Shown: piece by piece, positions 5,913-13,027 of the stretch
How the letters are laid out: every line of letters starts with the position of its first letter
Position numbering within the stretch: position 1 is the first letter of the stretch
From: Oscillospiraceae bacterium
GTDB lineage: Bacteria; Bacillota; Clostridia; Oscillospirales; Ruminococcaceae
Assembly (NCBI GenBank): GCA_014799395.1
Contig: JAAVID010000095.1
Span: forward strand, 1 to 33,516
Direction of reading: 5' to 3'
DNA: 33,516 nucleotides
Notes under the pieces: model-generated
Seen by the model: the letters and a program-made list of their open reading frames with translations, nothing else
Database searches by the model: none
What the model was told of the DNA's origin: nothing
Position numbers and translations under genes: made by a program

Positions 5913-6021
5913 AAAAACCCGTCCCTTTCGGAACGGGTATGGTATTCGGCGGGTGTGCCCCCTCCCGCATCTCTTTGTAACCGCAATGGTGTATAGCAGC
6001 ACATTCTCTACTTCAAATACT
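5913..6021 (-). ncRNA. Candidate orphan small RNA, about 110 nt
   Basis: On the minus strand a perfect promoter (6028-6056) is followed, about 90 nt past the expected start near 6021, by a 9-bp hairpin with a GAAA loop (5917-5925/5930-5938) and a T run. This is a complete transcription unit with no plausible coding frame or ribosome site. Inside, a GCGGG/CCCGC hairpin and a TGTGC/GCACA pairing are possible. It does not match SRP, 6S, tmRNA or RNase P features that I know. It lies between the two sigma modules, its promoter partly facing that of module 2. Confidence 0.6.
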
Positions 6022-7305: not shown

Positions 7306-7334
7306 AAGCGGGAGCATAACTCCCGCTTTTGTTT
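7306..7334. terminator. Bidirectional terminator between sigma module 2 and proS
   Basis: A 9-bp perfect stem, 7306-7314 with 7320-7328, loop cataa, and a T-rich tail on the plus strand. The minus-strand side is also T-rich (TTTATATTTATA), so it can serve both converging genes. Confidence 0.85.
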
Positions 7335-9055
7335 TACTTTGTGATCATCTCGGAAATAAGCTCCTTAAGCCGTTCAACAGCGTTTTCGGGTTTGAGCTTT
7401 TCGGAGAGGGTCTTGTCGCGGCTTGAGAGCTCGAACACGCCCTCGTCGAGGTTTCTCGGGCTTACGACCACGCGCAGAGGAACTCCGAGCAAGTCCGCGT
7501 CGGAGAACATAACGCCCGCGCGGACGTTTCTGTCGTCGTAGATGACCTCAACTCCCGCGGCTTGAAGATCCTCGTAGAGCTTGTCCGCGGCAGCCTTGAC
7601 GCGCTCGTCGTCGGGGCGGACAGCGCAGAGATGAACCTGCCACGGCGCTATCGCCATAGGCCAGATAGGACCGTAATCGTCGTGAGAAGCCTCGCAGACC
7701 GACGCGGCAAGTCTGCCCACGCCGATACCGTAGCAGCCCATTATCGGGGTCTGCTCCTTGCCGTCCTTGTCGAGGAACGTCATTCCCATTGACTTGGAGT
7801 ATTTCGTGCCTAACTGGAAGATATTGCCGACCTCGATACCGCGTGAGATATTTACGGTCTTTTCGCCGCACTCGGGACAAACTCCGCCGTCGATTATCTT
7901 CGCGAGATCGCGGTACTCGACGTTCGCGCAGTCGCGCTCCATATCGAGACCCGTCAGATGATAATCCACCTTGTTCGCGCCGCAGACAAGGTTGTTCGCG
8001 CCCTTGAGCGAGCTGTCGAACAGCACGGTATGGTCTCCGTTTACGGTAAGGTTCACGGGACCGATAAAGCCCGCCTTTAATCCGCATTCGTCGTCGATAA
8101 CGGCGGGGTGTATATCGCAGCCGAGGTAGTTTGTGAGCTTGGTCTCGTTCACGTCCAAGTCGCCGCGCAGGAACACCACTACAAAGCTGTCGTCGGTGTT
8201 TTTCTGATAAATAACCGCCTTCAGCGACTTCTCAACGGGCGCTTTCAGGAAATTGCAGACCTCCTCGATAGTGTGACAATCGGGAGTATTTACCTCGGCG
8301 AGCGCCTCGGAAACGTCGTCGCGGACGTTCGTGATTATGGACGGCGCTGCCTCGACGTTCGCGGTGTAGCCGCAGTGCTTGCATATCGCGATACTGTCCT
8401 CTCCGATAGGCGTGAGGAGCATAAACTCGTGCGACACCGAGCCGCCCATCATTCCGCTGTCGGACTTTACCGAGATAACGTTCGGCGCGCCGCAGCGTCT
8501 GTAAACGTTCTCGTAAGCCTTGTGAGCGCGTTTGTAGTACTCCTCCAGATCCTCCTGCGACGTATGGAACGAGTACGCGTCCTTCATCGTGAACTCGCGC
8601 ACGCGGATAAGACCGCCGCGCGGACGAGCCTCGTCGCGGAACTTGGTCTGTATCTGATAGATCATAAACGGATATTTCGTGTACGAATTAGCGTACTCGC
8701 GGACGAGCTGAACTGCCGCCTCCTCGTGGGTCATACCGAGGACGAGAGGCTGTCTGCCGCGGTCTGTAAAGCGCACCATTTCGCTGCCGATAGAGGTATA
8801 GCGTCCGCTCTCCTCCCACAAACTTGCGGGCATAACGACGGGGAACATTACCTCCTGTCCGTCGATAGCGTCCATTTCCTCGCGGATTATCTGCTCGATC
8901 TTGCGCGTAATGCGCTTGAGGGGCGGGTAGTTCGAGAAAATGCCGTTCGCCACATACTTGATGTAACCGCCGCGCACCATAAGCGCGTGGCTGTCGATCT
9001 GGCAGTCCGAGGGGCGCTCTTTAAATCTGTCGCCTATCAGTTTGTCTAATTTCAT
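7334..9055 (-). CDS. proS: Prolyl-tRNA synthetase, bacterial type
   Basis: A 573-residue class II synthetase that charges tRNA-Pro. It has the bacterial layout: an N-terminal catalytic part with RDEARPRGGLIRVREFTMKDAYSFH, an inserted YbaK-like editing domain in the middle (roughly residues 220-400, which removes mischarged alanine in this family), the motif-3 region GCYGIGVGRL, and a C-terminal anticodon-binding domain. Length is normal. The start follows GGAGG about 10 bases upstream. It lies 98 bases downstream of a kinase-like gene, and both appear to be read from the proline T-box at 9775-10049. Its end converges with sigma module 2 at the shared terminator. Confidence 0.97.
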   Translation of the reverse strand: MKLDKLIGDRFKERPSDCQIDSHALMVRGGYIKYVANGIFSNYPPLKRITRKIEQIIREEMDAIDGQEVMFPVVMPASLWEESGRYTSIGSEMVRFTDRGRQPLVLGMTHEEAAVQLVREYANSYTKYPFMIYQIQTKFRDEARPRGGLIRVREFTMKDAYSFHTSQEDLEEYYKRAHKAYENVYRRCGAPNVISVKSDSGMMGGSVSHEFMLLTPIGEDSIAICKHCGYTANVEAAPSIITNVRDDVSEALAEVNTPDCHTIEEVCNFLKAPVEKSLKAVIYQKNTDDSFVVVFLRGDLDVNETKLTNYLGCDIHPAVIDDECGLKAGFIGPVNLTVNGDHTVLFDSSLKGANNLVCGANKVDYHLTGLDMERDCANVEYRDLAKIIDGGVCPECGEKTVNISRGIEVGNIFQLGTKYSKSMGMTFLDKDGKEQTPIMGCYGIGVGRLAASVCEASHDDYGPIWPMAIAPWQVHLCAVRPDDERVKAAADKLYEDLQAAGVEVIYDDRNVRAGVMFSDADLLGVPLRVVVSPRNLDEGVFELSSRDKTLSEKLKPENAVERLKELISEMITK

Positions 9056-9153: not shown

Positions 9154-9705
9154 TTATTTCATAAAAAAATCAATTTGTTTTAATATTGCTGAATTTTGTT
9201 GGTAAGAAAAGTCGTCAGCTTCAATTTCCAGTGTTTGTCCAATGATCTTCTCGTTTCTGATCCATTCTGCCGTCTTAAGAAAATCTTCTTTTTCATTTAT
9301 TGTTGTAGTTAAGTGAACGGGGTGTCTATTTTCTTCATTCATCCGGCGGATATATCTTTCATACAAAACATCCGCATTTCCTCGCAATACCAACGTTAAA
9401 ACATCGTATTGGTTTTCATGGGCAATATTGTGTATTTTTTCCAATTCGGCTTCATGGAAATTTGCTTCAAGAATAACATTGCTGTCCGTTATTGCGATTT
9501 GCGAAAAAGCATGACACATAATTTCTATTGTCGCATTTGAAAGCATTTTATTCTCTTCACGATTGCGAAATCCAATGTTATCGCCTAAAATTTCCTTTAT
9601 GGTATCTTTTTGAAAAACAACCGCGCAATATCTGGCTGACAATATTTTTGAAAATGTTGATTTTCCTGCTGCTATGTCACCAGTAATCAACAGTAACTTT
9701 TTCAT
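9154..9705 (-). CDS. AAA/P-loop kinase-like protein
   Basis: A 183-residue cytoplasmic ATP-binding protein with the Walker A motif GDIAAGKST near residue 9, a hydrophobic Walker-B-like strand (SNVILEANF) and an arginine-rich lid (LYERYIRRMNEENRHP). This is the shape of the AAA_33/zeta-toxin/chloramphenicol-phosphotransferase-like kinases, so it probably phosphorylates a small molecule or nucleic-acid end; the substrate is unknown. The ATG at 9705 has AGGAGAGG 6 bases upstream; a TTG codon just before it is a weaker choice. About a third of its bases are G or C, against more than half in proS. Together with its position between the T-box and proS, this suggests later insertion. Confidence 0.8.
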   Translation of the reverse strand: MKKLLLITGDIAAGKSTFSKILSARYCAVVFQKDTIKEILGDNIGFRNREENKMLSNATIEIMCHAFSQIAITDSNVILEANFHEAELEKIHNIAHENQYDVLTLVLRGNADVLYERYIRRMNEENRHPVHLTTTINEKEDFLKTAEWIRNEKIIGQTLEIEADDFSYQQNSAILKQIDFFMK

Positions 9706-9774
9706 CAATTACCTCTCCTCTGAATTCCGATTTGTCAAACTGTAAATTATTTACCATCTTTGCCCATAGACCAT

Positions 9775-10049
9775 AAAACAAAAACGCCCCTTAACCAATG
9801 TTAAGGGACGAGTAATTACACCCGCGTTACCACCCAAATTCGGGAGCCGACTTTAACGTCGGTTCGCGCAGCTCAAAGAACATAATGTTCCGCTCTCGTA
9901 ACGGGAGAGACCGTCGCCGCTTAATCGAGCTTTCGCGGCGCACTCCAAGACGGGTTCGGCGTTTGGAATACCACGGCTCGCACCGACCGCCGTTTCTCTG
10001 AATACCCCGTACGCTTACTGTTTCTTGTCACAGCTTTTCAATATTCAAT
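9775..10049 (-). promoter_or_regulatory. T-box riboswitch, proline specificity
   Basis: Read on the minus strand, the leader has a long stem I region and the conserved T-box sequence GGGTGGTAACGCGGG (9835-9821). An 11-bp terminator follows (9810-9800/9795-9785) with a T-rich tail to 9775. The likely specifier follows GAA in the stem I loop: CCC at 9954-9952 (or CCG shifted by one), proline either way. Uncharged tRNA-Pro should prevent termination and raise expression of the kinase-like gene and proS downstream. Confidence 0.93.
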
Positions 10050-12359: not shown

Positions 12360-12388
12360 TTGACAAAACAAGGTTATTATGCTATAAT
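12360..12388 (+). promoter_or_regulatory. Perfect SigA promoter for the structured leader
   Basis: TTGACA (12360-12365), a 17-nt spacer, TATAAT (12383-12388) with a TATG extension. The expected start, near 12395, coincides with the first base of the closing helix of the leader described next. Confidence 0.9.
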
Positions 12389-12394
12389 TAAATT

Positions 12395-12558
12395 GCGGCA
12401 CAATTTAATAACGTCTTTTAAGCGTGGGTACGCTTTTGCCTATAGGTAAAAGTGCATGCTCTTTTCGTGTACCCTTTTTTAAGAGACGAAATTGTGTCGC
12501 AGCAATCGGAGCTTTGCATTTTTCGGTGCGTAGCTTCGGCTGCGCACTTTTTATTTTT
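12395..12558 (+). ncRNA. Riboswitch-like attenuator leader (or terminated small RNA)
   Basis: The transcript's first 12 bases (12395-12406) pair with 12489-12500 (one G-U). Inside are a 10-bp helix 12412-12421/12479-12488, GGGTAC/GTACCC at 12426-12431/12469-12474 and a hairpin 12434-12440/12445-12451. A 9-bp terminator with a TTCG loop (12526-12534/12539-12547) and a T-rich tail follows. Bases 12494-12503 can instead pair with 12539-12547 (9 bp, one bulge), which would break both the closing helix and the terminator. This is the classic layout of an OFF-type riboswitch. I do not recognise the class; a stand-alone small RNA is the alternative. Confidence 0.68.
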
Positions 12559-12595
12559 GTCGAGAAAACAATAACCCGAATAAAGGAGAAATGAA

Positions 12596-13027
12596 ATGGT
12601 TCCACTACTTATTAAAGCTGCTGTTTCCGCAGCAATATCGTTTTTTTCCACACCTCCGCTTGCTGAAATGTGTTGGAGAAGCGGTCCCGATATACCGAAG
12701 AGCTTTCTTGCTGTTACATATCTGTTGGTCTTTTTATGGAGTTATTTTTCCCTAAGCGCAACCGCATACGCATTGCATTTGGGAATGGGGTTTGCATTGA
12801 TAGTCGGGATATTATCAATTGCGATTGGCGGAGCGATCGCGATGGCTGATGCTTTTTTCTTTGTAGATATTTTCGCCAATATAACGCCGGACGACATAAA
12901 AGCTAACCCAACCGATTTAAAGGAGTTCTGGATTCTGATGCTCATATCGGTCGTGCTTTTTCTTGTTTTTCCGATAATAGATATTATATTGATGATCAAG
13001 AAAATTCGCGACGGAGAGTGGCTTTGA
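12596..13027 (+). CDS. Small membrane protein of unknown function under leader control
   Basis: A 143-residue integral membrane protein with about four hydrophobic segments (around residues 37-58, 62-82, 82-95 and 110-132), a loop containing NITPDDIKANPTDLKEFW and a short basic C-terminus KKIRDGEWL. I do not recognise the family. The ATG at 12596 has AAAGGAG at 12582-12588 with 7-base spacing; an out-of-frame ATG at 12591 is too close to that site. It begins 38 bases after the leader's terminator, so it is the likely controlled gene. A ligand-related role (uptake, export or ion balance) would be guesswork. Composition is AT-richer than the surrounding operons. Confidence 0.72.
   Translation: MVPLLIKAAVSAAISFFSTPPLAEMCWRSGPDIPKSFLAVTYLLVFLWSYFSLSATAYALHLGMGFALIVGILSIAIGGAIAMADAFFFVDIFANITPDDIKANPTDLKEFWILMLISVVLFLVFPIIDIILMIKKIRDGEWL

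Follow-up and report, generated by a model that had tools for sequence, protein, structure and literature searches.

A promoter-fused leader RNA of Clostridia with competing pairings, probably a transcription attenuator of a new class

Introduction

In trp-type attenuators, alternative segments of the leader RNA pair as 1:2, 2:3 and 3:4, and c-di-GMP riboswitches occur in several copies per genome ahead of surface genes. The leader RNA described here shares with the former a chain of alternative pairings that ends in a terminator, but the pairing that corresponds to 2:3 (B:C, see below) opposes an antiterminator and is not one itself. With the latter it shares the multi-copy use before surface genes, although it has no Rfam match to them. 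T-box leaders (RF00230) are comparable as a case of transcription attenuation in Bacillota, but no T-box match covers the leader. The trpB motif (RF04312), a riboswitch candidate, likewise has a hairpin P1 followed by a terminator and can be weakly aligned to the leader by Rfam, but the leader's score of 18.9 bits is well below the gathering score (59). According to PMC11109978, the antiterminator of the trpB motif sits in the right shoulder of P1, whereas the better-kept antiterminator of the leader lies downstream of P1.

We estimate at roughly three in four the probability that the leader, fused to its own promoter, represents a new RNA class and attenuates transcription in cis. The predicted structure and its competing pairings are strongly supported by comparison; the attenuation itself we infer, as we do the assignment of A:B together with C:D/E to read-through and of B:C together with D:E to termination.

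Results and Discussion

The folded leader occupies positions 12395-12558 on the forward strand of the window, that is the whole 33,516-nt stretch of DNA analysed here, between a consensus promoter and a gene starting at 12596; all features below are on this strand unless stated otherwise. The promoter (12360-12388) consists of TTGACA (12360-12365) and TATAAT (12383-12388) separated by 17 nt, matches the consensus at 12 of 12 positions and carries an extended TG (12380-12381) ahead of the -10 box. As the original prediction had it, the transcription start expected at 12395 (judged by eye) is the first base of a helix, 12395-12406/12489-12500, which is present in the minimum-energy fold. Promoter, helix from the predicted +1, inner domain and intrinsic terminator could all be confirmed in the sequence, so the initial observation is real. 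The leader RNA folds far more stably than its shuffled versions (z -7.32; 0 of 200 shuffles as stable), its centroid fold contains the antiterminator and its minimum-energy fold the terminator.

The closing helix P1 is made of a 5′ strand at 12394-12406 and a 3′ strand at 12489-12501, and is followed on its 5′ side by a joining loop (12407-12411) whose AAUA (12407-12410) is kept in relatives. In the fold of the window leader, the variable helices P2 (12412-12422 with 12478-12488) and P3a (12426-12430 with 12470-12474) lead to the hairpin P3b, the 5′ side of which we call strand A (12431-12440). Strand B (12445-12461) comprises the 3′ side of P3b (12445-12454) and a toehold, CAUGCUC (12455-12461). 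What had been noted as a loop-rich core can now be identified as this toehold and a U-rich linker (about 12455-12468). Strand C (12502-12523) can be the partner of B via 12509-12523 or the 5′ half of an antiterminator via 12502-12520, and the 3′ half of the latter (12525-12543) overlaps the intrinsic terminator (12526-12558; stem 12526-12534/12539-12547, UUCG loop and T-rich tail). The window copy also contains a perfect 9-bp inverted repeat at 12387-12409 (ATTAAATTG-CGGCA-CAATTTAAT) spanning the -10 box and the start site, a possible operator; this palindrome is not obvious in the other copies compared, as judged without scoring.

When scanned against Rfam 15 (4227 families), the window leader gave no match at the gathering thresholds, permissive matches lying far below them, which agrees with the earlier failure to assign it to a known class. 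Rfam did not match the element in 20 loci with divergent copies either. The only matches at curated thresholds in the window are a T-box leader (RF00230, 108.2 bits, 9801-10040, minus strand), located upstream of the minus-strand frames 9154-9708 and 7334-9055, and a skipping-rope RNA (RF02924, 48.2 bits, 5941-6021, minus strand), both outside the leader. Literature searches, which did not extend to supplementary lists where an unnamed candidate is possible, produced no description recognised as this element, nor was it recognised in the available parts of the surveys PMC8040213 and PMC11109978. Our claim of novelty is based on these searches together with the missing match in Rfam 15.

The presumed target gene (12596-13027), preceded by a Shine-Dalgarno-like AAGGAGA at 12583-12589 (by eye), encodes a 143-aa protein that appears by eye to be a membrane protein. 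It is an orphan: no Pfam family scored above the cut-off, the single match among 100 genomes was the window's own, and six peptide patterns retrieved no match from a collection of genome contigs. Because neither the other 99 genomes nor the peptide patterns yielded a relative of the protein, we rejected the downstream gene as a guide to function. Nor does the unknown small membrane protein of the original prediction provide a key to the class, since it is an orphan here and other copies of the leader precede different types of protein. Unlike the protein, the leader DNA has many relatives in a sequence search of 100 genomes.

Judged by the YspA protein (88% identity), the nearest relative is a genome (G020) in which our covariance model R1, built from 20 aligned copies of the element, finds no match; its VTC protein shares 94% identity over 201 residues, and the space between yspA and the VTC gene is taken by another gene in the opposite orientation. 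Because this relative lacks the element and has another gene at the site, the promoter and leader of the window, together with the orphan membrane gene, have the appearance of an accessory segment that was inserted or replaced another one; the presence of that other gene also means that no insertion boundary can be drawn in an empty-site test. That gene of the relative (locus L330, complement of 713-1510) looks by eye like an HTH regulator, which makes the position between yspA and the VTC gene appear prone to gene turnover.

By its sequence, the window leader belongs to a widespread RNA family. Within the genus, R1 produced 96 matches, some short or weak, in 26 of 43 genomes (0-12 per genome). 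In the order, its matches at E ≤ 0.001 come from 139 of 394 genomes, which represent 72 of 168 genera. A broader covariance model, R2, was used for the class and the phylum: at E ≤ 1e-4 it matched 96 of 391 class genomes (56 of 223 genera), about a quarter of those sampled, although Rfam 15 has nothing that matches the element; among 299 genomes sampled from the phylum, R2 matched the window's own and no other. Since about seven candidates per genome were scored in the order and class searches, copy numbers there are floors, and weak copies are under-sampled because the analysed copies are the best-scoring matches. A tally at E ≤ 1 (94 of 100 genomes) was set aside, as many of the weak matches span only the promoter stretch. 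An exact 20-base pattern occurs in at least 119 stretches of named records, and the 80 matches listed stem mostly from uncultured gut or rumen Clostridia, Oscillospiraceae and genomes labelled Ruminococcus or Ruminiclostridium. The family is real and large, is apparently uncatalogued, and would form a class of Clostridia attenuators that are fused to their own promoters and act on transcription. Among the loci that carry the element is a record labelled as an unverified bacteriophage (L359, MT835845.1); its reading frames look chromosomal by eye, and the record is probably mislabelled and derives from a gut bacterium in human feces.

Several copies per genome, copy numbers that differ strongly between species and a close relative with another gene and no copy at the syntenic site are also what a mobile repeat or selfish element would produce, its promoter and palindromes being incidental. 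However, all 140 copies of our main set are distinct, and the P2 region shows 126 distinct 13-base stretches, while pairing is kept. The exact pattern has no match in viral contigs and none in plasmids, on which grounds a phage or plasmid origin was rejected; two unverified fecal 'phage' scaffolds do match, and the one examined looks chromosomal by eye. We therefore consider a mobile or selfish element very improbable.

Besides the main set, a second set of 108 copies spread over the class was compared; two weak matches among them were left out of the energy, P2+P3a fold and swap tests (n = 106) and kept in the pairing and covariation counts. What is kept across the family is a cassette in which a strong promoter is followed by the closing helix, positioned at the predicted +1, then by a folded core and a terminator; in most cases a gene start lies close downstream. 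At most one mismatch to the 12 promoter consensus positions is present in 99 of the 140 main-set copies, while 700 random positions peak at 5-6 mismatches. A TGn precedes the -10 box in 134 of 140, and 121 of 140 have the end of their -10 box 5 nt upstream of the model start; one copy is truncated by a contig end.

The covariation anticipated by the original prediction is strong for P1, P3a, P3b and the terminator in a first set of 101 copies, and that of P1, P3b and the terminator was also seen in the 108 class-wide copies. In the latter, the 12 modelled pairs of P1, equivalent to 12394-12405/12490-12501 in the window, are 99.4% paired with double changes in 10 of 12 pairs, and the terminator is paired in 100.0% of cells with double changes in 7 of 9 pairs. 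Together, P1, P3b and the terminator are 98.2% paired (88.4% in shuffles) and contain 282 double-change cells (56.5 in shuffles), counts that lean towards structure because the P1, P3 and terminator helices were part of the aligning models. P2 varies in sequence among copies; single-copy folds of P2+P3a, run without a control, gave a median of 17 pairs (10-90% range 12.5-21) for 106 copies. The AAUA loop is nearly constant (A80, A103, T103 and A101 of 106), and P1 is in places less variable than its pairing would allow, as with pair 9-178, which is AU in 107 of 108 copies.

A strong promoter and a terminator of its own would allow each copy to release an RNA of about 155-165 nt, which might act chiefly as a multi-copy small RNA in trans. 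The position of the downstream genes speaks against this: in 56 main-set copies the most likely start falls 16-27 nt past the end of the RNA model and in 47 it falls 53-67 nt past it, so that 103 of 140 fall into two narrow ranges suggestive of control in cis, with 13 more at 28-52 nt and 24 beyond 67 nt. Of the 54 class-level copies, 51 have a called frame, starting at 14-27 nt in 23 cases, at 28-67 nt in 7 and farther away in 21. At the distant starts simple gene calling may fail, or a close gene may be absent. As the co-adapted antiterminator described below also argues for control in cis, a mainly trans-acting role appears improbable to us.

The competing pairings speak for the preferred reading, a cis-acting attenuator. 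Strand B, the 3′ side of P3b with its single-stranded CAUGCUC, is complementary to strand C directly 3′ of P1, and its core (12448-12461) can pair either with A (12431-12440) or with C (12509-12523). The alignment does not favour B:C or the antiterminator, since both are absent from the aligning models; the shuffle counts that follow are not probabilities, as the sequences are related. In the 108-copy set B:C is 96.5% paired (93.9% in shuffles), with 55 double-change cells compared to 19.6 in shuffles and at most 25 in slid versions; another count gave 96.0 vs 93.7% and 32 vs 7.0 double changes. Pair 120-201 is unpaired in 29 of 107 copies. Of the copies with A at column 114 (B), 20 of 21 have U at column 207 (C), and of those with G, 80 of 85 have C there, although column 58, the strand A partner of column 114, is often a U, which tolerates both A and G.

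The antiterminator 12502-12520/12525-12543 pairs C with the 5′ arm, the loop and part of the 3′ arm of the terminator. In the 108 copies it is 92.8% paired, compared to 91.0% in shuffles and at most 49.1% in slid versions; its two main helices reach 96.1 and 98.1%, its lowest helix 81.6%. It has 39 double-change cells vs 14.9 in shuffles, but slid versions reach 31. In the genus-rich set of 101 copies it is barely above the shuffles (95.9 vs 95.4%; covariation score reached by 60 of 500) because it hardly varies there. Taken in isolation, the stretch from C to E adopts the antiterminator fold in 80 of 106 copies and not in 26, its fold being in the median 3.6 kcal/mol below the terminator alone over all 106. 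Median energies of -8.2 kcal/mol for A:B and -19.5 for the C-to-E fold stand against -13.2 for B:C and -15.4 for the terminator, so the two states are near equal in energy by simple sums that leave out loop and pseudoknot terms. The pairings A:B, B:C and C:terminator co-adapt, also inside taxonomic families: strands swapped among all copies were never as low in energy as the native ones (B:C 0 of 200, A:B 0 of 100, C:DE 0 of 100), and neither were swaps within families (0 of 1000 for each of the three; 93 of 106 copies, 16 families). In sum, an intrinsic terminator lies between promoter and gene, and an antiterminator that excludes it is conserved, as far as sequence can tell.

The original prediction of a structured leader with mutually exclusive terminator and antiterminator holds in this form, but its choice of the 3′ strand of P1 as the antiterminator is not supported. 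The 9-bp pairing proposed, 12494-12503/12539-12547, is present in the sequence with U12497 bulged, and in the window copy it may still form. As drawn, it is kept less well (87.3% paired vs 85.7% in shuffles, 0 of 500 as high) than the competition of A:B, B:C and C:terminator, and it is unpaired in 31 of 107 copies at a pair whose P1 column covaries. The C:D/E antiterminator uses no P1 strand and is compatible with P1, so opening of P1 is not needed for read-through. A leader-peptide attenuator was rejected as well, because a closed frame of at least 6 codons led by a ribosome site is not conserved: a simple scan found one in just 16 of 140 copies in the main set and 13 of 106 in the second.

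We propose that P1 to P3 would fold during transcription with A:B formed and the 3′ end of B free as a toehold. From this toehold C could invade B, and the resulting pseudoknotted helix (B:C, at most 13 pairs) would sequester C, allow the terminator D:E to form and stop transcription (OFF). When A:B stays in place, which a signal that binds the P1-AAUA-P2-P3 fold might for example bring about, C would instead pair with D/E as the antiterminator and the gene would be transcribed (ON). Such alternating pairing of A, B, C and D would amount to a natural strand exchange of the toehold type, accessible to tests with short RNAs.

What might hold A:B is the point at which two special cases of the attenuator part. 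In a true riboswitch, the P1-AAUA-P2-P3 fold would be an aptamer for a small molecule, possibly a cell-surface-linked signal, and the ligand would decide between A:B and B:C. Signal-molecule riboswitches have a similar architecture and multi-gene use, and the conservation of the AAUA joining loop and the U-rich linker and the tandem double copies at several loci would fit as well. However, although the helices and the AAUA loop are kept, few unpaired bases are strictly conserved that could make a pocket; we regard a riboswitch as quite possible, if short of an even chance. For c-di-GMP in particular, every one of the 43 genus genomes has GGDEF matches, and the more of them there are, the fewer copies of the element tend to occur (rho -0.39, kinship ignored); as copy number does not rise with GGDEF number, this link was rejected. 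Alternatively, an RNA-binding protein or elongation factor could read P1/AAUA or the toehold and set the terminator. That P1 is partly more constant than pairing needs would suit such a protein, but there is no Rfam leader family match and no candidate protein, co-occurrence with copy number having been examined for the GGDEF family only, and we rate this option a little less probable than a riboswitch. The tandem pairs mentioned, about 210-315 bp apart and mostly before one gene, are found at L066, L143, L281, L289, L295 and L309.

Coming back to the attenuator as such, its target genes suggest what it could be used for. A crude hydrophobicity rule classed 104 of 123 downstream proteins as exported-looking, compared to 119 of 354 control frames of at least 150 aa, and a crude lipobox was found in 32 of 123 vs 31 of 354; the 123 genes are those of the 140 with a start within 130 nt and a ribosome-site word, and the control, taken from other loci, includes any element-downstream genes lying in these. 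A Pfam scan of the first 400 aa of 121 of the 140 proteins (additionally at least 60 aa long), many of them paralogues from a few genomes, assigned 52 to the BspA-type leucine-rich repeats (LRR_5) and 3 to AMP-binding enzymes. At class level, where 32 of the 34 filter-passing genes among the 54 copies were scanned, 6 of 32 matched LRR_5 and 5 of 32 the copper amine oxidase N-terminal domain. By eye, many of the class-level targets are small and lack export signals. Copies of the element thus precede BspA-type repeat proteins, lipoproteins and other proteins, one target being a GIY-YIG/HTH protein. Within the genus, copy number rises with the number of LRR_5 matches (rho 0.65, kinship ignored).

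Repeated copies of the switch in many genomes could provide coordinated control of surface and other accessory proteins, and many poorly annotated exported genes of gut bacteria would gain a common regulator. Tentatively, one may go on to picture a new riboswitch class that works by toehold strand exchange and, with up to a dozen promoter-fused copies per genome, governs the surface-protein repertoire of many uncultured gut and rumen Clostridia, the sensed signal being possibly tied to the cell surface or the host environment.

Two groups of small proteins deserve mention. Similar-looking proteins of 75-78 aa (by eye) start directly after the element in four genomes, at L282, L284, L285 and L292, those at L282 and L292 having no Pfam match. 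At L296 and L303 a similar-looking pair of small cysteine-rich proteins is encoded downstream of the element.
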